DNA from: a virus
Length of the DNA stretch: 40,748 nt
Reading direction: 5' to 3' (one strand)
IMG/VR virus record: IMGVR_UViG_3300044822_000036
Location: 1-40,748 of that record
Part shown: positions 1 through 40,748 of the stretch, in pieces
How the letters are laid out: every line of letters begins with the position of its first letter
Position numbering within the stretch: the first letter of the stretch is position 1
Made by a program: the position numbers and the translations under genes
Notes under the pieces: generated by a model
What the model was told of the DNA's origin: nothing
The model's input: only the letters and a program-made list of their open reading frames with translations
Databases searched by the model: none

Positions 1-187
1 CGAGCGCGAGCAATCCCCGGTCGATCCGATGGCCTTAAATCCGAACTTGGTGATCTCGAGCGACGTCGGACAGGTCCCGGCCGCCGGCGCCATGCTCGCC
101 GCGAACGAAGCGGCCGCCCGCACCGAAGAGATCGCCCCGACCCTCTTCAAGGCGGCGACCGATTGCGCGTTGAGGCACGGCACATGA
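1..187 (+). CDS. C-terminal fragment of a large virion (polyvalent-type) protein, 5' end missing
   Basis: An open frame enters from the left edge in frame 2 and gives about 61 residues of Ala/Glu-rich, probably helical C-terminus ending in ALRHGT and a TGA at 185-187. The TGA overlaps the ATG of the next gene (ATGA), the coupling used throughout this phage. The giant gene beginning at 37136 runs off the right edge without a stop and would be followed by this position on a circular map, so this is most likely its missing end. The frames join only if 3k+1 bases are absent between the edges. The assignment is by position; the fragment has no diagnostic motif. Confidence 0.7.
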   Translation, partial: EREQSPVDPMALNPNLVISSDVGQVPAAGAMLAANEAAARTEEIAPTLFKAATDCALRHGT

Positions 188-2736
188 AGCAGGCTTGTAT
201 CGATCTCGTCGGCGGACTCCTCGGTCGCCCTCCCGTCGCGAAGGAAACCGCCGGCCTCGAGGACCGGGTGCGGCTGCACATGAAGCTCCTCGCCCGAAAA
301 GATCCCGACGCCTGGCGCGCGCTCTCGCTCAACGAGCGCATGACGCAGGCGGCGCAGGCGGCGGCGCAAGATCTGATCGCTGAGCTCCAGAAGCAGCAGC
401 AGCGCGTCGCGCTCACGATCCAAGCTCACGACAAGATCGAGCAGTTCCTCGCGAACCAAGGGATCAAGAAGCCGGGCGACAAGCTGCGCGCGCTCTCGCA
501 AGTGCTCGACTTCGACACGAAGGGCGGCGGGTTTACCTCGGCCGCGAGTTGGGTGAAAGCGATTCAGGAAGAGACCTTCGGCCAGCTGATCGATACCTGG
601 ACGGCCTCGCATCCGAAATTCTTCGGCCTCTTCGAACACCAAGAAGGCACGCGCGACCTTGTGCGGGAGATCTTCGGGGAGGACACCGGCAACGCCGCAG
701 CGAAGGCCGGCGCGAAAGCGTGGCTCAAGATTACGGACGGCCTGCGCGATCGGTACAACGCGGCCGGCGGGGATGTCGGGAAACTCGATGAATGGCATTA
801 CCCGCAAAGCCACAGCCAGCAGCGCATCGGCAAAGCCGGGTTTGAACGCTGGGCCGCCGATACCTTGCCGCTCCTCGATCGCACGAAGTACGTGAACGAA
901 GATGGCACGTCGATGAACGACGGCCAGATGCGGGATTTCCTCGGGGCCGTCTACGACTCGATCATCACGGACGGCAACAACAAGCGCGACACCACGCGCC
1001 CGCAAGGCTACGGGCTGCAGGCGAACCGGGGCGGGGAACATCGGCAGGTGTTCTTCAAGGACTCGGCGAGCTATCTCAGCTATCAGGGCAACTACGGCGA
1101 TAAGTCGCTGTGGAACGTGCTCACCGGGCACGTGCGCGGCTTGGCGCGGGACATCGGTGTGGCCGAGACCTTGGGGCCGAATCCCGATCAGGTATTCGGA
1201 GCGTTCAATCAGCGCGTGCTGACGGAGGAACTACGCGCGAATCCGACGAAGGCGGCGAAGCTGAACAAGGCCGCCGTATTCAACGACAAGCTGCTCGACT
1301 ACGTGAGCGGACGGCAGCAGGTGGTCGATACCGAGCTCGCGGCGAAGTTCCAAGGATTCCGAAACTTCATGACCGCCGCGAAACTTCCGAAGGTCATCAT
1401 CACCGCGCTCGGCGACGAAGCCGGGATGGCGGCGACCGCCTTTGCCAATAAGGTGCCCTACAGCGAAACGTTCCTGCGCGAAATGGCGACCCTCAATCCC
1501 GCAAACGGTCGCGACCGCGCGATGCTCGAGCAGAACGGCATTGGCCTCAACTCTATGATGGGCGGCCTCAACCGTTTCGGGCAGGAGGAATACGGTTCGG
1601 GGTGGACGGGGAAACTCGCGAACTTCGTGATGCACGCCTCGGGAGCCGAACGCATGTGGGACGCTCGCCGGCAGGGACTCGCCTCCATCCTCATGAGTTC
1701 GCTCGCGAAACTCACCCGCGAGCATGCGACGTTCGCGGATCTGAACCTAGCGGACCACGGGGTGCTCGCGAACAAAGGCGTGACGGAAGCCGACTGGCAG
1801 GTGTGGCAGAAGGCCGAGCCCGAGCTCTGGCAGGGCGAGACCCCGATGATTACGCCGAAGTCGATCCAAGCCATTCCGGACGAGGCGATCGCGCACCTCG
1901 GAGATCCCACCGCACTGCGGCGCCACGCTTCCACCCAGCTGCTCGCGCACGTGCTCGAGGAGGCCGGCATGGGCGCCATGGACACCGGACCGCGGCAACG
2001 GGTCACGCTGCAACTCGGCACCACGAAAGGCACCTACGGGGGCGAGCTCCTGCAGAGCGTGCTCCTGTTCAAGTCCTTCGCAGCCTCAATGATGATGAAG
2101 CATTGGGCGCGCGCTGCGCAGATGCCTGGTGCCGGCTCGAAGTTCGGCTATATCGCGCCCCTCATTGTGTACGGCACCGTGATCGCCGCGCTCGGCAACC
2201 AGATCCGGAACGTGCTTGCGGGCAAAGATCCGGCCAACATGGCGAGCCCCGCGTTCTGGGGCGCGGCGGTCCTGCGGGGCGGCGGCCTCGGATTCTTCGG
2301 GGATTTCTTCTACGACGAATTCACCGAGCAGGACACCTCGCTCGCGGCGGCGCTCACCGGCCCCATGGGTACCACGGCCGAAGATATCTGGAAGCTGACG
2401 GGGGCGGCCGCGATCCATCACGCGCGCGGGCAGCGCACCGACGAAGGCGGGAACCTCGTCCGTTTCGGCAAACAGAACCTTCCCGTGCTGAGCCTCTGGT
2501 ACCTCCAAGCCGCGATGGATCACATCCTGTGGAACCAGATGCAGGAAGCGGTGAGCCCGGGGTACCTCGAGCGGATGCAGGCGAAGGCCGAAGCCATGAA
2601 GGGGACGAGCTGGTACTGGCGTCCCGAGGACCGCGTGCCCGAGCGCGCGCCCGACGTATCGCTCTCGAAAGTGTTCAACACCGATCGCGGGATGGCGGAA
2701 ACGCAGCGCATCGCTTCATCGGTAGGACTGGAGTAA
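184..2736 (+). CDS. Large internal virion (ejection) protein
   Basis: An 850-residue protein. I start it at ATG 184, which overlaps the previous stop as ATGA; a TTG at 163 in the same frame has no such support. The N-terminal third is charged and helical (Gln/Lys-rich near residues 65-90). A conserved-looking centre near residues 205-225 contains WHYPQSH and a GFERWA stretch, which I associate with large podovirus ejection proteins. A hydrophobic segment lies near residue 660 (IAPLIVYGTVIAALG), and the C-terminus is rich in Trp and charged residues. It sits between the giant virion protein and the tailspike, the place of the T7 gp16-like ejectosome protein. I see no transglycosylase motif. 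A structural or ejection role is inferred from size and position. Confidence 0.75.
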   Translation: MKQACIDLVGGLLGRPPVAKETAGLEDRVRLHMKLLARKDPDAWRALSLNERMTQAAQAAAQDLIAELQKQQQRVALTIQAHDKIEQFLANQGIKKPGDKLRALSQVLDFDTKGGGFTSAASWVKAIQEETFGQLIDTWTASHPKFFGLFEHQEGTRDLVREIFGEDTGNAAAKAGAKAWLKITDGLRDRYNAAGGDVGKLDEWHYPQSHSQQRIGKAGFERWAADTLPLLDRTKYVNEDGTSMNDGQMRDFLGAVYDSIITDGNNKRDTTRPQGYGLQANRGGEHRQVFFKDSASYLSYQGNYGDKSLWNVLTGHVRGLARDIGVAETLGPNPDQVFGAFNQRVLTEELRANPTKAAKLNKAAVFNDKLLDYVSGRQQVVDTELAAKFQGFRNFMTAAKLPKVIITALGDEAGMAATAFANKVPYSETFLREMATLNPANGRDRAMLEQNGIGLNSMMGGLNRFGQEEYGSGWTGKLANFVMHASGAERMWDARRQGLASILMSSLAKLTREHATFADLNLADHGVLANKGVTEADWQVWQKAEPELWQGETPMITPKSIQAIPDEAIAHLGDPTALRRHASTQLLAHVLEEAGMGAMDTGPRQRVTLQLGTTKGTYGGELLQSVLLFKSFAASMMMKHWARAAQMPGAGSKFGYIAPLIVYGTVIAALGNQIRNVLAGKDPANMASPAFWGAAVLRGGGLGFFGDFFYDEFTEQDTSLAAALTGPMGTTAEDIWKLTGAAAIHHARGQRTDEGGNLVRFGKQNLPVLSLWYLQAAMDHILWNQMQEAVSPGYLERMQAKAEAMKGTSWYWRPEDRVPERAPDVSLSKVFNTDRGMAETQRIASSVGLE

Positions 2737-10849: not shown

Positions 10850-11052
10850 GGCTCCTCCCGCTCCTCGCCCGCCGTCTCGATCGCCGTCGCGCCGTCCACG
10901 GCAAAATGCACGATCTGCTCCTGCGTCGCGACCGCCGCGGCGTAGACGCCTTTCACCACGTGCCGGATCGCCTGCGCGGGACTCGAGGCGCGCACGAGGC
11001 GCACGGTGTTGGGATAGCCCCCAGCGTCGACCAGATAGATTCGCTTCGTCAT
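10846..11052 (-). CDS. Small protein of unknown function in the recombination operon
   Basis: A 68-residue protein from ATG 11052 with GAGGAAACT directly upstream. It opens with MTKRIYLVDAGGYPNTVRLVRASSPAQAI, a beta-beta-alpha pattern, and continues RHVVKGVYAAAVATQEQIV. Similar short phage proteins (a strand pair followed by an 'A-I/L-R-H-V' helix) are common but uncharacterised. It overlaps both neighbours by four bases. Confidence 0.7.
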   Translation of the reverse strand: MTKRIYLVDAGGYPNTVRLVRASSPAQAIRHVVKGVYAAAVATQEQIVHFAVDGATAIETAGEEREEP

Positions 11053-12502: not shown

Positions 12503-12693
12503 GAGGTGCCTTTCGTAGAACGCACGGAGAAGGCGCCAGAGGCGCGATCGGCTTCGCGACGGGCTTGAGCTCGTCGGACGAGGTTATCGGCCACCCGCTG
12601 GCGCCACCGCTTCTCGCACAGGGCATCTGCGGCCCGCTGGTCGACGCATTCGACGTAGGGGGGGAGCCACAGGAAATCGATCGGGCGGCTCAT
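12499..12693 (-). CDS. Small basic protein of unknown function
   Basis: A 64-residue protein, ATG 12693, overlapping the upstream stop (ATGA). It contains MSRPIDFLWLPPYVECVDQRAADAL and an Arg-rich helix (EKRWRQRVADNLVRRAQARREADRA), suggesting nucleic-acid binding or a helical adaptor. I do not recognise it. Confidence 0.65.
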   Translation of the reverse strand: MSRPIDFLWLPPYVECVDQRAADALCEKRWRQRVADNLVRRAQARREADRASGAFSVRSTKGTS

Positions 12694-12869
12694 GCGGCAC
12701 CTGCTTTCGCGACTTCCGCTGCTTTCAGCCGCTTAATGCAGGTCGCGCGCCAGTAGCCCGACTTTCCGAAGATCGTCAAGCGTGCCTGAAATCCAGGGTC
12801 GCGCGGCTTTGCGGGCTTGTCGCAGCCGCAAGGGCAACGACGGCCGATCGGCTGAGTGCGCCGGCTCAT
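12690..12869 (-). CDS. Small basic CxCxC protein
   Basis: A 59-residue protein from ATG 12869; both ends overlap neighbours as ATGA. It opens MSRRTQPIGRRCPCGCDKPAKPRDPGF and continues YWRATCIKRLKAAEVAKAGAA. The RRCPCGCDKP motif plus a later Cys (residue 44) could bind one zinc. Very basic, so nucleic-acid binding is plausible. Its phase with neighbours and the ordered Cys motif support coding. Confidence 0.68.
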   Translation of the reverse strand: MSRRTQPIGRRCPCGCDKPAKPRDPGFQARLTIFGKSGYWRATCIKRLKAAEVAKAGAA

Positions 12870-13192
12870 GACGCACCTGCTTTCGCGCGCAGTTCTTCAA
12901 TGCGCTCCACCGAGAGGCCCGTGAACATGCTGAGCGAAAAACTTGAGATCTCCGGAAAGCGCTTGATCCACTGCCGCGCTTTGCGCTCCGCGCGCACGAC
13001 CGAGCCGAGCACGGCGTCGCCCTTCTTCTCGCAGCATTCCGTGCAGATCCACGCGCGCGTGCTCAGCTGGAAGAACTTCTCGCTCGTGTAGCCGTGGCAC
13101 ACGCAGCAGCTGGTGACGGCATAGGCGTGACGCCCCATCGTCAGGAGATCCCGGTAGGTGCGGGGCCGGGAACCGTCGCGACCGCGAGTCAT
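12866..13192 (-). CDS. Zinc-finger protein of unknown function
   Basis: A 108-residue protein. Start ATG 13192 is chosen because it overlaps the upstream stop; longer versions run over the neighbour. After a basic start (MTRGRDGSRPRTYRDLL) come CCVCHGYTS and WICTECCEKK, a paired-CxxC zinc ribbon across residues ~29-58. A helical tail with RKARQWIKRFPEISSFS and VERIEELRAKAG follows. Function unknown. Confidence 0.75.
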   Translation of the reverse strand: MTRGRDGSRPRTYRDLLTMGRHAYAVTSCCVCHGYTSEKFFQLSTRAWICTECCEKKGDAVLGSVVRAERKARQWIKRFPEISSFSLSMFTGLSVERIEELRAKAGAS

Positions 13193-13419
13193 GACACACC
13201 TGCCTTCGCGAGCGCGGCGCGGCCCGCGTCCGTTACGTCTAGGGAGCCGCTCGCGTTGCTGACAATCAAGCCGCGACTGCGCAGCGCATCCAACACCCGT
13301 TCGCGGTTCCGCCACCACAGGCCGTTAGCGTGACTCCACTCCATCGGGTCCGTGGGCTCGCCGAAGCGTTCCAGTTCGCGCAGTTCCTCCACCATGCGGG
13401 CGGAAAGCGGACGGCTCAT
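13189..13419 (-). CDS. Small winged-helix-like protein
   Basis: A 76-residue protein, ATG 13419. The sequence reads as a small winged helix: LSARMVEELRELERFG, WWRNRERVLDALRSRGLIV, then a hairpin SNASGSLDVTDAGRAALAKAG. The 'V-T-D-A-G-R-A-A-L' ending is common in bacterial and phage wHTH proteins. DNA binding is likely but not shown. Overlaps neighbours by four bases at both ends. Confidence 0.7.
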   Translation of the reverse strand: MSRPLSARMVEELRELERFGEPTDPMEWSHANGLWWRNRERVLDALRSRGLIVSNASGSLDVTDAGRAALAKAGVS

Positions 13420-17098: not shown

Positions 17099-17224
17099 AT
17101 GGACCTCGCAGAACGCGTCATCGCCTACGGCACGGTTGGCCTCGTCAGCCTCTGCGGCCTGTGGCTGACGGTGACCGTCCTGCGCGACGTGGTCGAGCTC
17201 GTCCGCCTGGTGCGCGTGCTGTGA
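17099..17224 (+). CDS. Small single-span membrane protein
   Basis: A 41-residue protein from ATG 17099: MDLAERVIAYGTVGLVSLCGL, WLTVTVLRDVVELVRLVRVL. One transmembrane helix covers residues ~9-27, followed by an amphipathic helix. Its stop overlaps the next GTG (GTGA). Function unknown. Confidence 0.55.
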   Translation: MDLAERVIAYGTVGLVSLCGLWLTVTVLRDVVELVRLVRVL

Positions 17225-17670
17225 AGCGGATCCCGCAGGTCAATTCGGGCGAGGAGACGTTCCTGTTCTGGGTGAAGGCCGTGCGGCTGCCGGTCCCGGA
17301 GCGCAATTTCCGGTTTCTCACAGAGCGCAAGTTTGAGATCGATTTCGCGTGGCCGGCGTGGAGGGTCGGCGTCGAGATTCAGGGCGGCATCTGGACGGGC
17401 GGCGCGCACGGGAGGCCCTCGAACATCCTGCGCGATCTGATCAAGCACAACCTGCTGCTCGATGCCGGATGGCGCGTGTGGCACTACACCCCCGATCACG
17501 TGACGACCGGCGAGGCAGTCCAGCATCTGGAACCGATCCTGCGGGCGTGCCAAGATCGCGACGCGAGGGCGCAGGGAGAGTCGAGCCGTTCCGTCCCCCG
17601 GTGCGTACCGTACTTTCCCCCGTCCTCGCCCTGGCCGAGCCGACCGAGCGATGAACCTGCGCCGTTCTGA
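17221..17670 (+). CDS. PD-(D/E)XK endonuclease (DUF559/VRR-like)
   Basis: A 149-residue nuclease from GTG 17221. Key elements: Glu12 in SGEETFLFWVK, KFEIDFAWPAWRVGVEIQGGIWTGGAHGRP with Asp41 and Glu52, then RDLIKHNLLLDAGWRVWHYTPDHV. The usual E-x-K appears as E-x-Q (Gln54). Phage members of this group are placed near replication and recombination genes and are often suggested as Holliday-junction or branch nucleases. The last ~35 residues are Ser/Pro-rich and disordered. Confidence 0.82.
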   Translation: MKRIPQVNSGEETFLFWVKAVRLPVPERNFRFLTERKFEIDFAWPAWRVGVEIQGGIWTGGAHGRPSNILRDLIKHNLLLDAGWRVWHYTPDHVTTGEAVQHLEPILRACQDRDARAQGESSRSVPRCVPYFPPSSPWPSRPSDEPAPF

Positions 17671-21218: not shown

Positions 21219-21668
21219 GTGAGCGTGCGGTTCGCGCGCGAGTCGATGGCGGCCGTGCGCGAGGAGATCCTGCCGCTGCTGCACGCGCACTGGGCGGAAG
21301 TGGCGCACTACGCCGACATGCCGCTTAACCCGAACTGGCCGTGGTACGAGGCGTCCGAAGCGGCGGGGCAGCTGCGGATCTTCACCGCTCGGGACGGCGA
21401 GACGCTGATCGGCTATGCGATCTACGTCATCGGCCCGGGGCTCCACTACCGCGATTTCACCTACGCGAATCAGGACATCCTGTTCGTGCTGCCGGAGTAC
21501 CGCCGCGGGTTCACGGGCCGCGAGCTCCTGCGGTTCACGGAGCAGGCACTCCGGGCCGACGGGGTGCATCTGGTGCTGCAGCACGTGAAGGTCGCCCACG
21601 ACTTCGGGCCGCTGCTGCGGCGCGAAGGCTACGAGCCGATCGATACCATCTGGGGAAAGCGGCTGTAA
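21219..21668 (+). CDS. GNAT-family N-acetyltransferase
   Basis: A 149-residue protein from GTG 21219. It follows the GNAT fold: LRIFTARDGETLIGYAIYVI (strand-turn with the 'G-Y' motif), QDILFVLPEYRRGFTGRELLRFTEQALRADGV with the acetyl-CoA-binding R-x-G-x-x-G/R loop (YRRGFTGREL), and LRREGYEPIDTIWGKRL at the end. Such genes are common between terminase and portal in podoviruses. The substrate is unknown; modification of a capsid or host protein is possible. Confidence 0.85.
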   Translation: MSVRFARESMAAVREEILPLLHAHWAEVAHYADMPLNPNWPWYEASEAAGQLRIFTARDGETLIGYAIYVIGPGLHYRDFTYANQDILFVLPEYRRGFTGRELLRFTEQALRADGVHLVLQHVKVAHDFGPLLRREGYEPIDTIWGKRL

Positions 21669-28843: not shown

Positions 28844-29536
28844 GTGGCCTCGCAATTAGACTGTTACAACATGGCGCTCGCCTTTCTGGACACCTCCCAG
28901 ACGGTCCAGAGCGTCAACGACAACAGCGAGGCCGCCGGCGCCTGTAACCGGTTCTATGACTGGGCGCGGAAGAAGACCCTGGAGCGCGCGTTCTGGGACT
29001 TCGCGACGAAAGCCCCCGCTCTCTCGCTCGTGCTCGATCAGTCGACGCTCGCCACAAATGCGGTGGTTTATCCGGGCTGGCGCTACGTGTACGCAAAGCC
29101 TCTCGACTGCCTGCGCTTTCTCGCGATCACCACTCAGTACGGCCTGCGGACGAACCCGTTCCGCACGTTCTGGTGGTCGGCCGATCAGCCGTTCATCGGC
29201 TGGGGACCGTACCGGCCGCCGTTCGTGGAAGCGATCGATCAGGTCAACACCACGCAGCCAAACCAGTCGATCAACCTGCTCACCGACCAGTCGAGCGCTT
29301 ATGGGGTGTACGTGACCGACGTCACGAACGTGGGCCTCTGGTCGCAGAGCTTCCTCGAGGCCGTCGCCTGGCAGCTCGCGGTGCCGATCGCCGGACCGAT
29401 TTCGGCGAACCAGAACGCGAAGAAGAACGCGATCGAGATGGTCGAGCGCTCCATCACGACCGCCTTGCAGGTGCAGTTCGGCGAGCGACAGGACGACGGT
29501 TACCCGGATAGCCCGGCGATCACGGCGCGGCAATAG
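28844..29536 (+). CDS. Tail tubular protein A (T7 gp11-like)
   Basis: A 230-residue protein. I choose GTG 28844 with CCGGAG upstream over TTG 28829. The opening SQLDCYNMALAFLDTSQTVQSVNDNSEAAGACNRFYDWARKKTLERAFWDFATKA is diagnostic for the gp11-like gatekeeper that binds the portal. VYPGWRYVYAKPLDCLRFLAI follows. The TAG overlaps the start of tail tubular protein B. Confidence 0.92.
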   Translation: MASQLDCYNMALAFLDTSQTVQSVNDNSEAAGACNRFYDWARKKTLERAFWDFATKAPALSLVLDQSTLATNAVVYPGWRYVYAKPLDCLRFLAITTQYGLRTNPFRTFWWSADQPFIGWGPYRPPFVEAIDQVNTTQPNQSINLLTDQSSAYGVYVTDVTNVGLWSQSFLEAVAWQLAVPIAGPISANQNAKKNAIEMVERSITTALQVQFGERQDDGYPDSPAITARQ

Positions 29537-32500
29537 TGTTCGAGACGCCGATCGACCTGATCCAGCCGAGTTTCGCCCGCGGCGAAGTCTCCCCGTTCCT
29601 CTTCGGTCGCGTCGATCTTGCCGGCTGGGCGCAGGGCCTGCGGACCTGCCGCAACTTCGTCGTGCGCCCCGAGGGGTCGGTCTCGAACCGGCAGGGGTTC
29701 ACGTACCTCAATAATTCGATCGCGCCGAGCGGCTCGACCCAGTCGAAGGCTACGATCCTGATGCCGTTCATCTTCTCGGCGACCCAGAGCTATGTGCTCG
29801 AGATCGGCGCGAGCACGGCGCAGGTGTTCTCGAACGGCGCGCAGGTGCTTTCGGGCGGCGTCCCGATCAGCTTCGCGACGCCGTGGGCCGCCGCCGATCT
29901 TCCGCTCCTGCGCTGGTCGCAGTCCTCGGACACGCTCACCGTCGTCCACCCGAAATATCCGCCCTACGAGATCAAGCGCACGAGCGCGACGAGCTTCACC
30001 TGTCTCGCCGCCGTGTACACCAACGGTCCCTTCCTGCAGCAGAACTCGGACGGGGTGACGTTCGTCTACGCGAGCGCGAAGAGCGGCACCGTGACGCTCC
30101 ATGCGAGCGCCGCGATCTTCAATGCGAACCACGTCGGCGCGCTCTTCCAACTGACCCAGCAGGACGTGTCGACCATTACGCCCTGGCAGTCCGAGCGACA
30201 GATCGCCGGGCCTTCCCCGCTTGCCTCCCAGACCGTCGGCCTGCAGCGCAGCTCCAACCTCAAGAATTACGCCTCTGTCTCTTCGGTCCTGCAACCGTTC
30301 AATCCCGCGAGCCAAACGGTCTGCACCGGGACGACCGCCCCGCAGCACAGCCAAGGGGTGCAGGCGGACGGCGACGGCGGCAACGTCCCGACCCTCGGGT
30401 TCTGCGGCATGAACTGGGAGTATCAGGACTCCGGGTTCGGGATCGTGCTGATTACCGGCTATACGAGCCCGACGCAGGTCACGGGCGTCGTGCAGCCGAA
30501 TTACCCCGGCGGCCCGGGCCTCCTGCCCGTAACGGTCGTCGGAGGCCCTCAGGTGACCGTGGGACCGCTCACGTTCAGCGGCACGGGATCCGCGACGGTG
30601 TTTTCCCCGCTCACCGGCATGACCTCGACCGATCCGTCGAAGTACTACGTGACGGTCGGCGGGGTCTATCAGCCGCCCGCGCTCTACTCGATCAGCGGGG
30701 CCGGCGGGAGCATCACGTTCCTGAACCCGCCGGCCGCCGGCACGAACAACGTGTCGGTCTCGCAGATCACCCTCCTCGGGCAGACGACGTATTGGGCATT
30801 CGGAGCGTTCAGCGCGGATCAGGGATACCCCTCTGCCGTCACCTACTTTCCGGACCGGCTGATTCTCGCCGCGACCCAACAGCAGCCCGTGGGCGTCTTC
30901 GGTTCGCAGACCTCGCAGTACCACAATTTCGGGGTGAGCAATCCGGTCGTCGCGTCCGATGCGTTCACGGTCTTCCTGAACGCCCGACAGCTGAACGCGA
31001 TCTCCGACCTGATCCCGCTGTCGGACCTGCTGCTCGGTACTTCCAACATTATCTGGCGACTGTGGCCGGGCTCGACTGGTACGGCGCTCGGACCGCTCGC
31101 GATCAGTGCGAACCCGCAGAGCTTCTACGGCCAGTCGCCGACCTGTGCCTCGGTGCTCTTCGGCGACTCGGCGATCTTCCCAGAGTACGACGGACGGCGG
31201 CTGCGCGACCTCATCTATCAGTTCGCCTACGACAAGTTCCTCGGGCAAGAACTCACGCTCTACTGCCATCACCTCATCCCGTTCGGAACCCAGTTCCAGC
31301 GCCTGGCGTACAAGCCCGATCCCATCGGCCAGTTCGTGTTCGGGCTGCGCTCGGACGGAGTGCTGCTCTGTTGCACGTACCTGCGCGAGCAGCAGCTGGT
31401 CGGCTGGTCGCATTGGGACACGCAGGGCACGTTCGAGGACATCTGCGTCGTCCCCGAAAACAACACCTTCGGGCTCTACGCGATCACGAACCGCACGATC
31501 AATGGGGTCGCGAGTCGCTTCGTCGAGCGGCTGTCGCAACGCGAAGTTTCAACGATTTACGACTATAAGTTCCTCGACTGCAATCTGACGTATGACGGGC
31601 GGAACACGAGCGCGGTGACGATGACCGCGAGCGGCCTCACCTCGCTCCTGGCGGGCGGGACCGGCACGCTCACGGCCTCGAGCGCGAGCGGCTGGGCGAC
31701 GTTTCTCGCCACCGACATCACGAACAATAACGAGATCTGGATCTTCCAGACGTTCACGTTCGCGACGTCGGTCGCGGGACAGGCCGGGGGGACGCTGACG
31801 AGCGCCGTCACGGCCGGCACCTACGTCGTGCAGTTCAGCGATGGGGAATCGCAGGCGATGACGGTCGCGAGTGACGGAGTGACCTGCACGTGGTCCTCGC
31901 CCCTCGCGACGCCCGTGCAGGTGTTGAGTGCGACCTGCCGCTGCCGACTGCTGCTGACGGGGTACACGAGCTCGACGGTCGCGACCGTGCGCCTCAAGGA
32001 TCCCTGCCCGAATGGCCTGAACAACGTGGCCACCGCGGTCTGGACGTTCGCGCGCACCACCTTCTCCGGCGCCACGCAGCTCGCCAATACGCCCGTGGTC
32101 GCGCTGGTCGATGCAAACGTGGTCGGGATCTCGGCGGCCTCCAGCGTGCCGAATGGGGCGCTGTCGGTGTCGAATACCGGCATGGTGACGTTACCGAACG
32201 CAGGCGGCGTCGTGCAGATCGGCCTGCCGTACCTCTGCGACTTTGAAACCCTGCCCTTGAACGAGCAGGGCCAGCAGACGATCCGGATGCGCGCGAAGTC
32301 GGAGCCGGTCATTTATCTCGACGTGACCGAGACCCGGAACTTCCTCGCGGGCACCGATTTCAGCACCGCCGATCAATGGCCGCTCAAGCAGCGCGCTTTC
32401 GAGCCGTATGTCGCCGCAACGAGCCTTGCCGACGGCATCCTCTGGACGCGGGTGAACTCCTCGCTCTCCAGCGAATGCCACACCTGCATTCGCCAGAACA

Positions 32501-32565
32501 TGCCTCTGCCGATCAGTATCCGGGGTCACATCCCGAGCGTCATGATCGGCGAACCCATCAGCTGA
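29536..32565 (+). CDS. Tail tubular protein B (T7 gp12-like nozzle)
   Basis: A 1009-residue protein from GTG 29536. MFETPIDLIQPSFARGEVSPFLFGRVDLAGWAQGLRTCRNFVVRPEGSVSNRQGFTYL is the family's start, followed by a long multi-domain beta structure. AVTYFPDRLILAATQQQPVGVFGSQTSQYHNFG and LVGWSHWDTQGTFEDICVVP are typical later landmarks. It forms the tail nozzle and carries receptor-binding proteins. It is longer than T7 gp12 (~794), with an insertion in the Thr/Gly-rich C-terminal half. Confidence 0.93.
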   Translation: MFETPIDLIQPSFARGEVSPFLFGRVDLAGWAQGLRTCRNFVVRPEGSVSNRQGFTYLNNSIAPSGSTQSKATILMPFIFSATQSYVLEIGASTAQVFSNGAQVLSGGVPISFATPWAAADLPLLRWSQSSDTLTVVHPKYPPYEIKRTSATSFTCLAAVYTNGPFLQQNSDGVTFVYASAKSGTVTLHASAAIFNANHVGALFQLTQQDVSTITPWQSERQIAGPSPLASQTVGLQRSSNLKNYASVSSVLQPFNPASQTVCTGTTAPQHSQGVQADGDGGNVPTLGFCGMNWEYQDSGFGIVLITGYTSPTQVTGVVQPNYPGGPGLLPVTVVGGPQVTVGPLTFSGTGSATVFSPLTGMTSTDPSKYYVTVGGVYQPPALYSISGAGGSITFLNPPAAGTNNVSVSQITLLGQTTYWAFGAFSADQGYPSAVTYFPDRLILAATQQQPVGVFGSQTSQYHNFGVSNPVVASDAFTVFLNARQLNAISDLIPLSDLLLGTSNIIWRLWPGSTGTALGPLAISANPQSFYGQSPTCASVLFGDSAIFPEYDGRRLRDLIYQFAYDKFLGQELTLYCHHLIPFGTQFQRLAYKPDPIGQFVFGLRSDGVLLCCTYLREQQLVGWSHWDTQGTFEDICVVPENNTFGLYAITNRTINGVASRFVERLSQREVSTIYDYKFLDCNLTYDGRNTSAVTMTASGLTSLLAGGTGTLTASSASGWATFLATDITNNNEIWIFQTFTFATSVAGQAGGTLTSAVTAGTYVVQFSDGESQAMTVASDGVTCTWSSPLATPVQVLSATCRCRLLLTGYTSSTVATVRLKDPCPNGLNNVATAVWTFARTTFSGATQLANTPVVALVDANVVGISAASSVPNGALSVSNTGMVTLPNAGGVVQIGLPYLCDFETLPLNEQGQQTIRMRAKSEPVIYLDVTETRNFLAGTDFSTADQWPLKQRAFEPYVAATSLADGILWTRVNSSLSSECHTCIRQNMPLPISIRGHIPSVMIGEPIS

Positions 32566-33883: not shown

Positions 33884-34368
33884 CGGTGCGCGTGGAAGTC
33901 GCCCGGGCGCATCACATCCCGCTCATCGTGCGCGGACTGCGGGAGCGAGATCGCGCCGAAATCCGCGCGGGATGGGGCGAACCGGAATACGCGATGCTGC
34001 AGGCGGTCTATTTTTCTCCGACCTTTGCGCGCGTCGCGTTCTGGGAACTCGAGCCGCTCGCTCTGTTCGGGATGCGCCCTTTGAGCGTGCTCGGCGGTTC
34101 GGCCGAAGTCTGGTGCTTCGGCACGGAGGCCATCGATCGGCACCGCTTGGCGTTCCTGCGCGCCTCCCGATCGCAGGTGCAGGCGATGTGGCGCCGCGCG
34201 CCGATCCTCACCAATTACGTCGACGTCAACGATGCCGCTGCCCTGCGCTGGCTCGCGTGGCTCGGCGCGAGGCAATCTTTGCCGCCCGAATCCCGCGGTG
34301 GGACACTCTTCGCGCAGTTTTTCCTGACTGCGCCACAGAGAGGGGCCAAAACGTGTCAGCGGGATTGA
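33880..34368 (+). CDS. Gp13-like internal virion protein A (DUF2833, acetyltransferase-like)
   Basis: A 162-residue protein; ATG 33880 overlaps the previous TGA. ARAHHIPLIVRGLRERDRAEI, LFGMRPLSVLGGSAEVWCFGTEAIDRHRLAFLRASRSQVQAMW and LTNYVDVNDAAALRWLAWLGA match DUF2833, the T7 gp13-like group with a GNAT-related fold. It opens the ejection-protein block. Upstream extension to 33739 in this frame runs over the neighbour and is rejected. Confidence 0.85.
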   Translation: MTVRVEVARAHHIPLIVRGLRERDRAEIRAGWGEPEYAMLQAVYFSPTFARVAFWELEPLALFGMRPLSVLGGSAEVWCFGTEAIDRHRLAFLRASRSQVQAMWRRAPILTNYVDVNDAAALRWLAWLGARQSLPPESRGGTLFAQFFLTAPQRGAKTCQRD

Positions 34369-34811
34369 CCGCCGGAGCGGGACTGCTGCAAGGCGTCGGC
34401 CAGTACGAAGCCGGACAGACGCGCAGCAACCTCTTCCGCCAGAACGCCGCGATTGCGACCGCGCAGGGGCAGTCGGAAGCCGAAGCGGGCGCGACGAACG
34501 CGAGCATGATCCGCATGCGCGGGCAGGCGCTCGAGGGGACGCAGATCGCCAACATCGGGGCGAACAACCTCACCCAAGGCGGAACGAACGCGCAGGTGGT
34601 CGCAAGTTCGGCGGCGATCAATGAACTCGACGCCCTGAACACCCGCAACAATGCGTTGCGCCGGGCGTGGGGGTTTGAGGTGCAGCAGGCGTCGGATGCC
34701 TTTCAGGCGAAACAGGCATCGCAGGCCGGCGATTTCAACGCGGCCGGGTCGATCCTGGCGGGCGGTGCAAAGAGCTACAAAGAAGAACAGCAGACGGGAA
34801 GCTGGTTTTAA
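34353..34811 (+). CDS. Internal virion protein B-like (T7 gp14 position)
   Basis: A 152-residue protein; GTG 34353 with GAGAGGGG upstream, overlapping the previous gene by 16 bases. It starts with SAGLTAGAGLLQGVGQYEAGQ, a hydrophobic/Gly segment found in podovirus ejection proteins. An Ala/Gln/Asn-rich helical body follows (QNAAIATAQGQSEAEAGATNASMIR, NNALRRAWGFEVQQASDAFQ). T7 gp14 forms the outer-membrane part of the ejection tube; the role here is inferred from position and composition. Confidence 0.76.
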   Translation: MSAGLTAGAGLLQGVGQYEAGQTRSNLFRQNAAIATAQGQSEAEAGATNASMIRMRGQALEGTQIANIGANNLTQGGTNAQVVASSAAINELDALNTRNNALRRAWGFEVQQASDAFQAKQASQAGDFNAAGSILAGGAKSYKEEQQTGSWF

Positions 34812-34814
34812 GCC

Positions 34815-37139
34815 ATGCCGACCGTTCCGAACCTCGAGACTCCGACCGTCCAGACGGAGCCGCTCCCTGGACGCGCGTACCCGCGGCTCGATGACAACGT
34901 CAACCCGGCCGCGTTCGGCACGGGACTCGCGGCGGGGCTCGAGGACGTGTCTGCGGCGGTCACCGACGAGCAGGCAAAGCAGAAGCTGCAGAACGATCAG
35001 CTGCGCGTGATCGATGCGAACACGCAGCTTGAGGCCGGGCGCACCGCGCTCCTGTACGGCACTCCGGACCCGCAGACCGGCGAGCGCACGGGCGGGGCCT
35101 TCTCCTATCACGGCGCGGACGCATTGAACCTCCCGGCGAAGATCCTTCCGGGATACCAGCAACTCGCGAGCCAGATCAGTTCGACCCTCACCCCCGACCA
35201 GCAGCGGCTGTTTGCGGCGCATATCTCGGCCGGTGCGAACGACCTCAACCTGCAGCTGAATCGCTACGAGTACGAGGAATCGAACCGGCTCGCCGATCAC
35301 ACGTATGCGTCGGCAGTGAATCAGGCGGTCGAGGGCGCTTCGGTCGGCTGGCGCGATCCGATACAGATCGGGAAGTCCCGAGCGGACATCAAGGCGCTTG
35401 TCGACATGCAGGGCAATCGGGAGGGCTGGAATCAGACCGAGAAGGACGCGCAGGCGCAGAAACTCCTCGCCGAGATGCACTTCTCGGTGGTCGACCGGAT
35501 GCTGGCGGACGGCAAGCCGCAGGCGGCGCTCGCGTACTTCGTCGGGACGAAACAGGAACCCGGGATCCGGGATTCCAACGAGCTCACCGGCGAGCAGGCG
35601 CACCAGCTCGGCAGCGCGATCGATGCGGCGATCAAGGAGGGTCAAGTGCAGCAGCAGACCCTGACCGCCGCGAAGGTCCGAGACGTGCGGACCGCCGCGA
35701 TCAACGGGCAGTTGATCCCGCCGTCGGCCATGCCGAGCCACGCGGAGCTGCAAGCCTATGACCCGTCCGGCGCGACCGAGAAGGCGATCCGTGCCGACAT
35801 CACGATGGGCTCGGACATGAAGAGCCTGGCCGGGCTCTCTCCGGCCGAGATGCAGGCGAAGGTCGAAGGATATCGCCCGACGACGGTCGAAGGCGCGGCC
35901 GAAGGCTATGAGCGGTACAACGCCATCGGAGCGGCGGCGCAGCGCGTGCAGGCTGAGCGGTCGAAGGACCCGCGGCAGTTCGCGATTGATAATCAGCTCG
36001 GCAGCAGCCCGATCAACTGGTCGGATCCTCAGGCCGCCGGACAGGAGATCCGCGCGCGCTTGGCGTCACTCCCGCAGCTGTCGTCGACGTTCGGCGGGTA
36101 TGTCCCGCCCCTCACCCGGACCGAGGCCGGGCAGCTGGCGCATTCGTGGGAGACGCAGACGCCGGCCGACCGGCTGCGCTCGATCAACGCCCTGCAGAGC
36201 GCGGTGGGCGACGATCACGGGTTCCAAGAGATCATGCACCAAGTCATGCCGAGCTCGCCGGTCACCGCGATCGTCGGCACGCAACTCTCGCAGTCGAAGC
36301 CCCAGAACGCCCCGGTCTGGTTCGACCAGCATTTTGCGCCCCAGCCGGCCGATCAGGTGCGGATCCTCGCGGGCGAGGCGCTGGTGAACCCGCAAGGCGC
36401 CGAGAAAGCGGGCGAAGGCAAAGGGGGCTTCAAGGGAGCGTTTCCGCTTCCCCCCGATGGCGGACCCGCGGGCCTGCGCGAGCAGTATTCCGATGCGGTC
36501 GGGGATCTGTTCCGGGGACGTCCCGAACTGGCGGACGCCTACTACGGCGCGTTCAAGGGTGCCTATGCGGCGCTGCTGTCGGAGAAGGGGGATCTCTCCG
36601 GCAACGGCGACGGGAAGCTGCGCGATCAGGCGTTGAAAATGGTGCTTGGCAATACCGCCGAGATCAACGGCCGGAAACTCGGGGTACCTCCTGGAATGGA
36701 CCCCTCGCGCCTCGAGGCCCTGGCGCAGAACGCGGTCGCGGCGCGCGCGAAGGAATCGAACGCTCCGGCCGATTGGGCCGACAAGATCAAGGGGTACCAG
36801 CTGCTCGAGGTGGGCGGCGTCGGGAGCGGGCGGTACGAGCTCGTGAACGGCAACGCCCCGCTCGTGCGCCCGGATGGCCGCGGCGTCTTTGAGATCGACG
36901 TGCGCAACCAGTACCTGCCGGGCCACGCGCGCGGGACACCGGCCGATGTCGCCCGGATGGCCGCCGCGCAGCGCACCGCCGATCCGGCCGCCCCGCTCGT
37001 CCCGCCGACCTCTCCGACTGCGGGCAATCCGGTGCCGAAGCCCCCTGAACGGACCGAGCCCGCCGTGACGCCGCCTGCGGTGATCCGATCAGGGGGCACT
37101 GGCCGAGCGCGTCCGTCACAAGGACCGAGCACCGAATGA
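34815..37139 (+). CDS. Internal virion protein C-like (T7 gp15 position)
   Basis: A 774-residue, helix-rich protein. The N-terminal region ETPTVQTEPLPGRAYPRLDDNVNPAAFGTGLAAGLEDVSA is a common opening of such proteins. The C-terminal third holds a conserved-looking PEL...FKGAYAALLSEKGD, GNTAEINGRKLGVPPGMDPSRLEALA and a beta section KGYQLLEVGGVGSGRYELVNGNAPLVRPDGRGVFEIDVRNQ. The last 50 residues are Pro-rich. It lies between the gp14-like and giant proteins; a periplasmic tube role is inferred. Confidence 0.8.
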   Translation: MPTVPNLETPTVQTEPLPGRAYPRLDDNVNPAAFGTGLAAGLEDVSAAVTDEQAKQKLQNDQLRVIDANTQLEAGRTALLYGTPDPQTGERTGGAFSYHGADALNLPAKILPGYQQLASQISSTLTPDQQRLFAAHISAGANDLNLQLNRYEYEESNRLADHTYASAVNQAVEGASVGWRDPIQIGKSRADIKALVDMQGNREGWNQTEKDAQAQKLLAEMHFSVVDRMLADGKPQAALAYFVGTKQEPGIRDSNELTGEQAHQLGSAIDAAIKEGQVQQQTLTAAKVRDVRTAAINGQLIPPSAMPSHAELQAYDPSGATEKAIRADITMGSDMKSLAGLSPAEMQAKVEGYRPTTVEGAAEGYERYNAIGAAAQRVQAERSKDPRQFAIDNQLGSSPINWSDPQAAGQEIRARLASLPQLSSTFGGYVPPLTRTEAGQLAHSWETQTPADRLRSINALQSAVGDDHGFQEIMHQVMPSSPVTAIVGTQLSQSKPQNAPVWFDQHFAPQPADQVRILAGEALVNPQGAEKAGEGKGGFKGAFPLPPDGGPAGLREQYSDAVGDLFRGRPELADAYYGAFKGAYAALLSEKGDLSGNGDGKLRDQALKMVLGNTAEINGRKLGVPPGMDPSRLEALAQNAVAARAKESNAPADWADKIKGYQLLEVGGVGSGRYELVNGNAPLVRPDGRGVFEIDVRNQYLPGHARGTPADVARMAAAQRTADPAAPLVPPTSPTAGNPVPKPPERTEPAVTPPAVIRSGGTGRARPSQGPSTE

Positions 37140-40100
37140 GCAGTCCGTTCCCCCTCGAGGAAGCGGCGCAGCAGGACACCGGACAACCGGTCTGGGATCC
37201 GTGGAAGTCCCCCGCGAAACCGGACTGGTATGCGGGATTCGGCTACACCGAGGACACGGCCTACCTCGGCCCGACGTACCGCCTGGCGGCGATGCCCGGG
37301 GCGGCCGTCGCGAAAGGAGAGTTGCTGCTCGGCGGCGCCCTGCACGCCTTCGGCTATCAGGATCCGGCCGCGCTCGCCGCCAACTACCAGACCCCCGATC
37401 CGATCCTGAAAAAGCTGGACGCGGCCGGCGAGGTGATCAAAGCCGACGCGAAGGAACGTCTGAAAGCCCTCACCCCTGATCCTGCGACCACGGGCTCGGT
37501 GCTCCAGACGCTCCACAGCCTCGGGGAGGGCGTCAGTACCGCTCTGGTGGGATCGGCCCTTGGCGGCCTTCCTGGTGCGTTTGGCGCGCTGTCGACTACG
37601 GAAGGCAATGCGGCCTACGAGTCCTTGCGCGATCAAGGCGTGGCGCCGGGCACCGCCGGCAGTGTGGCGACGGTCCGGGGGCTGCTCGCCGGGGCCGGAG
37701 CGGTGACGCCGATGGTGTTCGGGGCGAGCCTCTTGCCCCGGCTCGTGACCGGAGCGGCCACGAACGTTGCCTTCGGGACCGTGGGCCGGGCGGCGGACTC
37801 CGAGCTCCTGCGCCGCGGCGGCTATGACGAGATGGCCGATCAGGAGGCGACCTTCGACCGTTCCCAGATGCTGATCGATGCTGCGCTTGGGGTCGGGTTC
37901 GGAGGCTGGGCGCACGTCCACGCGGTTTTGGGTGGGGAAGCGAACTCGAAAAAGCTGGCCGACCTGATGGCCGCCGACCCGGCGCTGCGCGATGCCGCCC
38001 TGACGGCGAACCTGGCGCTGCGGGACCGGGCTTCGGGGCCGGGGGTTCCGGTCTCGCCGGGGGATGCGAACGCGCACACGGCGGCCCTGGAGCGTGCGGT
38101 GCAGCAACTGCAGGACGGCGCGAAGGTGAACGTCGCCGGCACCGGCGTCGAGGACTCCACCGTCGTGACCCGGGGCGGCACGGAGAATCCCGAGATCGGG
38201 GCGCTCCTCGAGCAGGCACTGCGGCAAGCCGGGGTGCTCGAGCACGCCCAAGCGCTCGACCAGATGGAAGCGGTGCTCGGGCGCAAGCTCGCCGGGGAAC
38301 CGGAACCCGCGCCCGTTGCCGCCGCCGAGATCCCGAAAGGCGAGAACCTGACCCCGGAGCAGCAGGGGATCGAGGAGCGCTTCGCCCGGCAACTCACCAG
38401 CGATCCCGCCGCCGCCGAGCGCGCTTACGCCGAGAACGAGGACACGGGCGGCGGCAAGATCCTGAACACCGACACCGCCCGCGAGCTCTCGCCCGATTAC
38501 CTCAAAGACCGTACCCAGTCGGCGGCCGTGCACGAGCCGGCCTCGTGGTTCATCAAACGCCTTTATGCCCGCAAGCTCGCCGCCGCGCCGGCGCCGGGCG
38601 AGACGCCCACCGTGCTCTTCACCGCCGGAGGGACGGGCGCCGGCAAGTCGACCGCAGTGCGCCAGACGATCCAAGCGGAAGCGAACCGCGCGCAGCTCAT
38701 CTACGACACCAACATGAACGGCCTGAAAAGCTCGATCGCGAAGATCGAGCAGGCGCTCGCCGCCGGCAAGAAGGTAAAGATCGCTTACGTGTTCCGCGAC
38801 CCGATCGAAGCGCTCGTGAACGGCGCGCTGCCGCGGGCGATGCGTCAAGAGCGGGAATTCGGCAGCGGGCGCACCGTGCCGCTGAACGAACACCTTGCCA
38901 CGCATGTCGGCTCGAACGAGGCAATTCGACAGATTGCAGAGCGCTATCGAGGCGACAACCGGGTCGCGATCCAAGTGATTGATAACTCGCGCGGGGCGAA
39001 TCAGGCGCGCGTGATCCCCCTCGCCGATCTACCCAAATTGGAGTACAGTAAGCTCCGTGAACAAGCCCACACAGCACTCGAGCAGGAACGCGCCAAGGGC
39101 GTCATCTCCGAAGCCGTCTACCAAGGTTTCCGAGATCGATCCGGCGCCGGCAGCGAGTCCGACGGACGACTGGGCGGACAGCTGGGGCCAGGAGCTGGCC
39201 GACCAGTTGAACCGGAACGTCCGGGACAACGTGCCGACCAGCTGACCGGCGAGACCGTTTCGACGGCGGCTGGCCGCGCCGTCCAAGTGCGCCCGCGCCT
39301 AGCCGAACTCGCCGACCTCATTACCTCCGACCAGCCGGCCTTCCCGCCGGAACTCCAGCCCCGCGAGCGCGGTGAGCGACGCGTGCTCGACCAACAGGTG
39401 CGGGAGATTGCCGCGAACCTCGTGCCGGAGCGCTTGGGCAACTCGCCCGAGGCCGACCGCGGCGCCCCGATCGTCTCCCCGCAGAACGAGGTCGAGAGCG
39501 GCAACGGCCGCGTCATGGCGCTGCGGCAGGTGTACCAAGGGAACCCGGAGAGAGCGGCGGCCTACCGGGCGTTCCTTGAGGCGCAGGGCTACGACGTTTC
39601 CGGGATGAAACAGCCTGTGTTGGTGCGCGAGCGCGTGACGCCGATGACGATGGCCGAGCGCACGGCCTTTGCCCTCGAGGCGAACCAGTCGGCGACCGCT
39701 TCGCTCTCAGCCGTCGAGCGCGGCGCGGCGGACGCGCGACGCCTGGATACGGATACCCTTTCGATGCTGACAGACGGGGAGATCGATTCGCGGGCAAACC
39801 AACCGTTTGCCCGCGCCTTTCTCGATGGCATCCCCCTCTCCGAACGCGCCGGCCTGCTGAACCCAGACGGCTCCCTCAATCAGGACGGAATCCGCCGGAT
39901 TCAGGCGGCGATCCTGACGAAAGCCTACGGGGGGACCGAGCACTCGGCGGCGATCCTCGGGCGCATGCTGGAGTCGACCGAAGGCGAGCAGCGGAACCTC
40001 CTGGGCGCGCTCCTGGATGCGGCGCCTGCGTTCGCGCGGCTGCGGCAGATGGTGAGCGACGGCGTGCTCGGGGAGCAGTACGACGTCACCGAGCGGGTAC

Positions 40101-40748
40101 TCGCGGCGATCGAGGACGCGAAGAAGCTACGGGAATCCGGTCAGTCGCTGAGCGAGCACCTCTCGCAGGCCGACATGCTGACCCCGCGCGATCCGGTGCA
40201 GGACGCGATCCTCAAGGCGTTCTACGACAAGGCGGGCAAACGTGCCGCCGGCCGAGCGAAGATCAAGGATGCGCTGATCGATTACGTGAACCGCGCCACC
40301 GCGCAGCGGCTCGACCAAGGCAACCTGTTCGGCGATCCGCCACTCGCGGCCGACCGGCTCCTTGAGGCGACCCTCGCGGGGCGCAAGGAAGAAGCCCCGC
40401 CACCGACGTCGCTCGACATGTTCGGCCTGCGCACTCCGCAGGGGAAGAAAGCCGAAGCGCCCGCCGCGCCGCCGCGCCGGGCCGAATTTGAGCCCGTGCA
40501 TGCCACGGCGGAGGCCGCTGCGGTCGGACCCGACAAGCCCTTCCTCGCCCTGCGCTTTGCGGATCGGCCCGACCTCGAAGGGCGCAACGCGGGAAACCCG
40601 GAAAGCCTGGCCGGCTACCTCATGGATACGGAGGACTGGGAGAAGCCTCAAGCCTCAGGCGTTGAGAAGAGCCACACAATCTATGTGCACGAAGTGACTC
40701 CAAAAGAACCGTGGGGACCTTACGCCGAGCTGATCGGGGGCAAAGAAC
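37136..40748 (+). CDS. Giant polyvalent-type virion protein with Zeta-toxin-like and DdrB/ParB-like domains, 3' end missing
   Basis: An uninterrupted frame from ATG 37136 (ATGA overlap) through the right edge, at least 1204 residues. Residues ~40-270 are Ala/Gly-rich with hydrophobic helices. Residues ~490-660 hold a Zeta-toxin-like P-loop kinase: VLFTAGGTGAGKST (Walker A Lys504), YDTNM with Asp524, then an Arg-rich lid region. Residues ~700-1010 carry a DdrB-like ParB-superfamily domain with the motif VSPQNEVESGNGRVMALRQ (Glu787 to Arg792). The fusion is what the literature calls a polyvalent protein, delivered with DNA to counter host defences. The C-terminus is probably the fragment at 1-187. 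Confidence 0.85.
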   Translation, partial: MSSPFPLEEAAQQDTGQPVWDPWKSPAKPDWYAGFGYTEDTAYLGPTYRLAAMPGAAVAKGELLLGGALHAFGYQDPAALAANYQTPDPILKKLDAAGEVIKADAKERLKALTPDPATTGSVLQTLHSLGEGVSTALVGSALGGLPGAFGALSTTEGNAAYESLRDQGVAPGTAGSVATVRGLLAGAGAVTPMVFGASLLPRLVTGAATNVAFGTVGRAADSELLRRGGYDEMADQEATFDRSQMLIDAALGVGFGGWAHVHAVLGGEANSKKLADLMAADPALRDAALTANLALRDRASGPGVPVSPGDANAHTAALERAVQQLQDGAKVNVAGTGVEDSTVVTRGGTENPEIGALLEQALRQAGVLEHAQALDQMEAVLGRKLAGEPEPAPVAAAEIPKGENLTPEQQGIEERFARQLTSDPAAAERAYAENEDTGGGKILNTDTARELSPDYLKDRTQSAAVHEPASWFIKRLYARKLAAAPAPGETPTVLFTAGGTGAGKSTAVRQTIQAEANRAQLIYDTNMNGLKSSIAKIEQALAAGKKVKIAYVFRDPIEALVNGALPRAMRQEREFGSGRTVPLNEHLATHVGSNEAIRQIAERYRGDNRVAIQVIDNSRGANQARVIPLADLPKLEYSKLREQAHTALEQERAKGVISEAVYQGFRDRSGAGSESDGRLGGQLGPGAGRPVEPERPGQRADQLTGETVSTAAGRAVQVRPRLAELADLITSDQPAFPPELQPRERGERRVLDQQVREIAANLVPERLGNSPEADRGAPIVSPQNEVESGNGRVMALRQVYQGNPERAAAYRAFLEAQGYDVSGMKQPVLVRERVTPMTMAERTAFALEANQSATASLSAVERGAADARRLDTDTLSMLTDGEIDSRANQPFARAFLDGIPLSERAGLLNPDGSLNQDGIRRIQAAILTKAYGGTEHSAAILGRMLESTEGEQRNLLGALLDAAPAFARLRQMVSDGVLGEQYDVTERVLAAIEDAKKLRESGQSLSEHLSQADMLTPRDPVQDAILKAFYDKAGKRAAGRAKIKDALIDYVNRATAQRLDQGNLFGDPPLAADRLLEATLAGRKEEAPPPTSLDMFGLRTPQGKKAEAPAAPPRRAEFEPVHATAEAAAVGPDKPFLALRFADRPDLEGRNAGNPESLAGYLMDTEDWEKPQASGVEKSHTIYVHEVTPKEPWGPYAELIGGKE

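Follow-up and report, generated by a model that had tools for sequence, protein, structure and literature searches.

An epsilon15 gp16-type ejection protein that may carry an ng_zeta1-type kinase and a DdrB-ParB domain as exchangeable cargo

INTRODUCTION

The virus record IMGVR_UViG_3300044822_000036 ends inside a long plus-strand gene that begins at position 37136, and the locus raises the question of why a phage would place a kinase and a ParB-like domain in a protein encoded among its ejection genes. A preliminary description of this DNA had proposed that the gene joins a Zeta-toxin-like kinase to a DdrB/ParB-like domain, that its product probably enters the host with the DNA, and that it represents an undescribed system. 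The window analyzed here is the whole IMG/VR record (40748 bases, 65.7% GC). We propose, with about even confidence, that this is the gp16-type gene of an epsilon15/YA3-like podophage, whose product has a two-enzyme cargo and delivers a nucleotide-sugar kinase and a ParB domain early in infection. The architecture, fold, active-site conservation and cargo exchange were computed, and virion presence is published for a relative.

RESULTS

A gp16-type frame with two predicted enzyme domains

The plus-strand open reading frame at 37136-40747 (1204 codons) was still open where the contig stopped. The frame of the long gene was as preliminarily described, but its end at 40748 was not: the gene is cut there by the contig end, and its tail and stop codon lie at 2-187. 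The parts of the gene are as follows.

37136..40747, plus strand: cargo-bearing epsilon15 gp16-type ejection protein, residues 1-1204, the frame running off the contig
37136..38320, plus strand: N-terminal constant module, residues 1-395, conserved core about 105-366, shared with epsilon15 gp16, phiV10 p19 and YA3 ORF16
38327..39151, plus strand: ng_zeta1-type Zeta kinase domain, residues 398-672, from profile, model and fold match
39251..40372, plus strand: DdrB-ParB region, residues 706-1079 (PF18763 at 713-833; phrog_5143 at 706-1079)
40463..40747, plus strand: residues 1110-1204, with no recognisable relatives
2..187, plus strand: C-terminal tail and stop codon of the gp16-type gene, at the opposite contig end

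The protein showed the features by which epsilon15 gp16-type proteins are recognized, namely the N-terminal module, the place between gp15-like and gp17-like genes, and the conserved C-terminal tail, the last being supplied by the frame at 2-187 through a partly circular profile. The N-terminal module matched 33 phage records, including phiV10, epsilon15, SPN1S and YA3. In PHROGs, residues 105-366 matched phrog_1145 and residues 706-1079 matched phrog_5143, both of unknown function. With a Zeta and a ddrB-ParB domain on an ejection frame, the protein also combines at least two disparate effector domains on one predicted injected polypeptide, as polyvalent proteins do.

The frame at 2-187 (61 codons and a stop) ends in "...FKAATDCALRHGT", overlaps the start of the gp17-like gene in an ATGA at position 184, and resembles the C-termini of the relatives at loci L003 and L009. 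A profile of the C-terminal tails of 29 relatives, with the window's own tail excluded, matched this frame at E 6.8e-9, the next frame of the window being at E 1; the 29 tails had been gathered with a six-seed profile that included the window tail, which makes this value partly circular and not fully independent. A five-seed tail profile built without the window tail, when run against every frame of every locus, scored the domain at only E 0.15 and the frame as a whole at 0.095. Judged from the sequence, the frame at 2-187 is the C-terminal end of the gene at 37136-40747, split by the contig ends, and our reading is that the record represents a permuted assembly in which a stretch of this gene is missing. 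Provided that the two ends adjoin, the missing stretch is a multiple of 3 plus 1. The equivalent ejection block of locus L095 is internal to a 44590-base contig. We found no end repeats in the 40748-base contig, and a repeat search of 36000-40748 returned only short, imperfect direct and inverted repeats. Residues 1110-1204, which like residues 1-395 lay outside the preliminary description, matched nothing in PHROGs, Pfam, NCBIfam, phage records or viral contigs, and may be the beginning of a third cargo domain that the contig end truncates.

The kinase domain has the rewired ng_zeta1 fold in its model

Pfam Zeta_toxin (PF06414) matched the whole protein at E 8.8e-12 (45.3 bits vs. a curated cut-off of 22.3), the best stretch spanning only profile positions 91-187 of 199. 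When a profile of seven related kinases was searched against PDB sequences, it found ng_zeta1 (E 4e-19), and no further zeta scored E 1 or better. We modeled the domain with AlphaFold from 64 sequences, obtaining a predicted local distance difference test score (pLDDT) of 96.5 and a predicted template modeling score of 0.92. The best Foldseek match was 6EPG (E 4e-14, vs. 1e-4 for classical zeta), and VIA-align superposed the model on 6EPH with Z 28.0 over 259 residues at 2.5 A. The next families were AvrRxo1 (Z 13.0), classical zeta 1GVN (Z 11.4, root mean square deviation 4.3) and polynucleotide kinases (Z about 9). The published ng_zeta1 structure differs from classical zetas by a topological rewiring (PMC5923241). 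In both the alignment and the model of the window kinase, the Asp-bearing strand precedes the P-loop, as in ng_zeta1, and the fold match runs end to end. On this model the kinase is of the rewired ng_zeta1 type and does not have the classical zeta wiring. The proposed relation to Zeta kinases thus stood up to the profile search and structure prediction, while the classical wiring that the name implied did not.

ng_zeta1 phosphorylates UDP-sugars at the C4'-OH, with Asp56 as the likely base, and its K115A variant showed no toxicity (PMC5923241). We located the corresponding positions of the window kinase in an alignment in which the ng_zeta1 chain numbering was counted by hand from the printed range.

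38471..38473, plus strand: D446, predicted catalytic Asp, aligned with ng_zeta1 D56, 64/64
38645..38647, plus strand: K504, P-loop Lys (GGTGAGKST), aligned with ng_zeta1 K115, 64/64
38705..38707, plus strand: D524, invariant (64/64), aligned with ng_zeta1 E133
38834..38872, plus strand: R567 to R579, two invariant Arg, likely to bind phosphate

D446, K504, D524, R567, R579, H586 and N617 were invariant in all 64 kinase domains, R449 was present in 63 of the 64 and S462 in 56. R567 and R579 are presumably equivalent to R175 and R181 of ng_zeta1. The P-loop with Lys504 had been noted before and was borne out by its invariance. Asp524 had been named as the catalytic residue; invariant though it is, its alignment with E133 led us to reject it as the catalytic base, and the equivalent of D56 is D446. 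From the conserved residues we read the kinase as active and of the ng_zeta1 type, with its predicted active site intact and its exact substrate as the main doubt.

Residues conserved across DdrB-ParB relatives

The second domain matched Pfam ddrB-ParB (PF18763) at E 1.4e-30 with 106.4 bits, against a cut-off of 27.6, over profile positions 3-120 of 121. Q741, R743, R745, N790, R792, Y810, P827, R831 and others were kept in all 13 relatives. The ESGNGR motif, which had been pointed out together with the DdrB/ParB-like domain, was found in place:

39494..39511, plus strand: ESGNGR motif, residues 787-792, with N790 and R792 in 13/13 relatives

DdrB-like ParB domains are described as having a conserved Arg, a D/N ending strand 2 and a Tyr in an extra helix (PMC5512222), and R792, N790 and Y810, their candidate counterparts judged from the alignment, were present in 13/13. 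A sequence search for solved relatives of the ParB domain gave none. Iyer et al. predict nucleoside triphosphate (NTP)-regulated DNase activity or NTP sensing for such domains (PMC5512222).

Zeta and ParB shared a frame in 13 of the 43 multi-domain frames of a set chosen by Zeta, in both orders, and also did so in large proteins that have no epsilon15 frame (L069, L101, L102 and L104). This suggests that the two domains are partners, though the set was chosen by Zeta.

The gene occupies the gp16 place of an epsilon15-like ejection block

The gp16-type gene is surrounded by the following genes, which agree with the earlier placement in an ejection-protein block in both neighbor identity and order.

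29536..32565, plus strand: tail protein, phrog_376, start of the block
33972..34811, plus strand: internal virion protein, phrog_418
34815..37139, plus strand: epsilon15 gp15-like ejection protein, overlapping the start of the gp16-type gene by 4 bases
184..2736, plus strand: epsilon15 gp17-like virion protein, phrog_684

Downstream of the gp16-type gene come the phrog_684 gene, for a virion structural protein, and then a gene for a tail fibre or tailspike. Annotations of phiV10 and epsilon15 place a tail protein first, followed by two internal virion proteins and then by gp15, gp16 and gp17 or their counterparts. The window's order of tail protein, internal virion protein, gp15-like, gp16-type and gp17-like genes matches this, and the gene between the gp15-like and gp17-like genes sits in the gp16 place. 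The gp17-like protein had matches in 111 phage records; in 85 of these the match spanned 80% or more of the protein, and phiV10 and SPN1S were among the matches listed; epsilon15 gp17 was compared with it in the block identity comparison.

In Pseudomonas phage YA3 the corresponding three genes are ORF15-ORF17, and orf15-orf17 are among the 13 structural-related genes detected by mass spectrometry of particles (PMC7326022). A review groups the epsilon15 gp14-, gp15- and gp16-like proteins with the T7 and P22 ejection proteins (PMC8954989). Because the YA3 orthologue is in the mass-spectrometry set, the gp16-type protein very probably travels in the virion, by analogy. Of the earlier suggestion that the product enters the host with the DNA, the packing step thus gains ground, and delivery itself is a step that we infer. 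We also looked for solved ejection proteins related to the N-terminal module and found no PDB match at E 0.001 or better.

Elsewhere in the window, an acetyltransferase-like gene (phrog_1249) was present in the head gene region at 21219-21668, the stretch at 17161-17670 gave weak REase_MTES_1575 and RAMA matches under the curated cut-offs, and three minus-strand frames within 10846-13318 had no match in PHROGs or Pfam.

Cargo is both inherited and exchanged at one site

A kinase scan of viral contigs confirmed 273 loci, of which the best 80 were kept, and a survey anchored on the gp17-like gene, and mostly not chosen by cargo, returned 80 of 568 confirmed loci. In the gp17-anchored set, 84 loci had an upstream frame of at least 250 residues, 26 after collapse at 70% identity; it is a limited sample, with 47 of the 84 loci in one phiV10-like cluster. 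The N-terminal module was found in 26/26 of these slot proteins, partly by choice, the slot frame having been picked near the gp17-like start with preference for an N-terminal profile match. The tail was found in 24/26, Zeta in 3/26 and ParB in 2/26, and Pfam added an ADP-ribosyltransferase (ART) domain in two and GGDEF in one. The slot proteins of L125, L127, L201 and L202, at 423-492 residues, are barely more than module and tail. In a group of 29 slot proteins, the majority of which had come from Zeta matches, Pfam identified Zeta in 22, ParB in 7, ART in 2 and GGDEF in 1. Zeta preceded ParB in the window, L009, L012, L014, L019 and L091, and followed it in L073. By eye we also guessed at a nuclease-like cargo in L132 and a lysozyme-like cargo in L126, for which Pfam gave nothing.

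The loci nearest to the window over the ejection block carry other cargo. L095 shares 71% identity with the window in the tail protein, 63% in the gp15-like protein, 42% in the N-terminal module and 56% in the gp17-like protein, yet has a GGDEF domain in place of Zeta and ParB. L002 (tail protein 70%, gp15-like protein 62%, module 55%) has neither Zeta nor ParB in the portion present, its contig ending inside the gene. The nearest kinase, that of L012, is 64% identical over Zeta; the module there is 32% identical over 112 residues, and the gp17-like protein and ParB are each 34% identical. In a tree of 65 kinase domains, the window clustered with four ParB-bearing slot proteins at 97% support in the Shimodaira-Hasegawa-like approximate likelihood ratio test (SH-aLRT), and therefore the pair and the slot appear to have been partly inherited together. 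The contexts on the tree (slot, stand-alone or other) required 14 changes, against 30.1 with shuffled labels and a possible minimum of 2. Read from these comparisons, cargo seems both clustered by descent and repeatedly exchanged. Of the sequence sets used, A2 comprised the window's kinase domain and 63 of the 64 that remained at a 90% identity cut, with L005 left out, A3 left out near-copies and weak matches, and A5 held 23 of the 29 listed gp17-like sequences and the window's.

In a prophage survey, the N-terminal profile had no match in one Rubrivivax-labelled genome; the gp17-like profile matched 6 of 399 genomes of that genome's order.

Related kinases in other contexts

After collapse, the Zeta-chosen set held 67 Zeta frames, 24 stand-alone and 43 multi-domain. 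Same-type kinases stood alone in other viral contigs at L061, L087, L027 and L040, those of L061 and L087 lying, on a by-eye reading, directly upstream of small/large terminase-like genes. A stand-alone relative in an Alcaligenaceae metagenome-assembled genome (MAG; L105:7872-8723) had, by eye, a signal-peptide-like N-terminus, which would place the kinase outside the cytosol. Very large polyvalent proteins at L103:5100-13145, L050:1992-11360 and L101:1410-13568 contained the same kinase beside ART, GNAT, inorganic pyrophosphatase, glucosaminidase, Eco57I-type methylase or SNF2 domains. More diverged relatives that stand alone, at 31-33% identity, occurred in Acidobacteria-labelled genomes/MAGs at L110, L111, L112, L114 and L118, one of them on a 1.1 Mb scaffold.

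DISCUSSION

By analogy with YA3 virions and epsilon15 biology, the gp16-type protein would be packed in the head and leave with the DNA via the short tail, and its cargo would arrive at cytosolic ATP. The ng_zeta1-type kinase may then phosphorylate a nucleotide sugar, with a UDP-sugar as the likeliest substrate, on the hydroxyl of the sugar that lies beside D446. This would drain the envelope precursors of a Gram-negative host at an early stage of infection; the DdrB-ParB domain would act on NTP or DNA. Cytosolic delivery, substrate, timing and benefit are thus what we infer. For the slot as a whole, we judge it about equally likely to hold or to fail that the epsilon15 gp16-type protein is a natural protein-delivery chassis, whose fixed N-terminal module and C-terminal tail flank a site where podophages swap cargo (ng_zeta1-type kinase, DdrB-ParB, ADP-ribosyltransferase, GGDEF or none), in either order. 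A dose of enzymes, in this phage a nucleotide-sugar kinase, would in this way be brought into the cytosol along with the genome.

Several findings weigh against this proposal. Zeta was present in only three of the 26 gp17-anchored slot proteins, indicating that the kinase is dispensable for the delivery system, and neither Zeta nor ParB occurs in the YA3 orthologue of the mass-spectrometry set, which makes the virion presence of the cargo a matter of analogy. Part of the C-terminal region of the gene is missing from the record, and the AlphaFold model of the N-terminal module was poor (pLDDT 68) and had no PDB match. In the kinase, the residues with which ng_zeta1 contacts the lactoyl group of its best substrate are changed (K59 to R449, N75 to S462), and therefore a preference for UDP-N-acetylmuramic acid (UDP-MurNAc) is not predicted; the failure of these UDP-MurNAc contacts concerns substrate preference and not fold class.

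The same changes favor the strongest alternative, a possible but clearly less probable one, in which protein and delivery are as proposed and the kinase acts on NAD or its precursors, on a signalling or defence nucleotide, or on nucleic-acid ends, serving counter-defence or host take-over in place of an envelope drain. The next fold after ng_zeta1 is the AvrRxo1 fold, stated to be NAD-phosphorylating (PMC5923241), polynucleotide kinases also appear among the fold matches, and the slot cargoes ART, GGDEF and ParB come from nucleotide-handling families; the kinase is nonetheless collinear from end to end with a UDP-sugar kinase, which scores 15 Z units above AvrRxo1. We find it improbable that the kinase, made in bulk, acts late in the infected cell and aids lysis, ejection being incidental. 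The gene does lie in a late block, expression of ng_zeta1 alone lyses E. coli (PMC5923241), and other phages have stand-alone kinases of the type directly upstream of terminase-like genes, but a fusion in a conserved ejection-protein frame, with variable cargo at one site, suits delivery better.

Two further explanations seem very unlikely to us. The wording of the preliminary description suggests a classical epsilon/zeta kinase that phosphorylates the 3' position of UDP-N-acetylglucosamine with Asp524 as its base, and both the PF06414 match and the invariance of D524 would fit; the fold match to classical zeta is, however, much weaker (by Z and deviation), and the strand bearing the Asp precedes the P-loop, an arrangement shared with ng_zeta1. 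Equally hard to credit is a cargo that has decayed or is purely structural, without catalysis: no member of the phage set has demonstrated activity, yet the P-loop Lys, the Asp and the Arg are invariant in 64/64 sequences that are 32-64% identical to the window's.

If the proposal is right, a large podophage group with the epsilon15-type block, to which phages of E. coli, Salmonella and Pseudomonas belong, possesses a single ejection protein with room for foreign enzymes, there is a defined place in phages to seek effectors that act before transcription, and it becomes a testable question whether a phage phosphorylates envelope precursors with an imported enzyme. ng_zeta1-type kinases are also extended from a plasmid toxin to phages by the 273 loci confirmed in one scan of viral contigs. 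The earlier claim of an undescribed system was too strong, as DdrB-like ParB domains and zeta-like kinases are both named in phage-injected polyvalent proteins by Iyer et al. in 2017 (PMC5512222, sections 15 and 25), who report the zeta-like kinase in conjugative elements and in phage MuF fusions and suggest that it weakens the wall; the ng_zeta1 structure was published afterward, in 2018 (PMC5923241). A literature search, whose scope left out most subscription papers and all bioRxiv preprints, found no zeta-type kinase described in a podophage ejection protein, at the level of titles and abstract openings and of passages in PMC5332604 and PMC12666361, and nothing for polyvalent proteins with a zeta toxin. 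Within that literature, neither the cargo slot of epsilon15 gp16 nor its occupation by an ng_zeta1-type kinase appears to have been described, while the general kind is known.

Comparison with known systems

Polyvalent proteins share with the window protein both domain types, a phage late-gene context and predicted injection with the DNA, whereas the epsilon15 gp16-type slot and the ng_zeta1 wiring are unmentioned in the consulted passages of PMC5512222. P1 DdrB matches window residues 708-1020 at 32.6%, in the ParB region only, and its C-terminal metallopeptidase (PMC5512222) is not seen in the window protein. ng_zeta1 (6EPG, 6EPH and 6EPI), of the gonococcal epsilon1/zeta1 toxin-antitoxin system (PMC5923241), shares the fold, strand order, P-loop Lys and catalytic Asp with the window kinase. 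It has a C-terminal OB domain, whereas the window kinase lies inside a virion protein and is followed by ParB instead; unlike in the gonococcal system, no antitoxin turned up among its neighbors, which are virion genes, in an analysis that included no search aimed at small antitoxins. The T7 gp15/gp16 ejection proteins form a block with the same place and role (PMC8954989), but no T7 record was among the matches listed for the window protein. The N-terminal module, C-terminal tail and gene order are shared with epsilon15 gp16, phiV10 p19 and YA3 ORF16, whose middle part is without Zeta or ParB, unlike that of the window protein.

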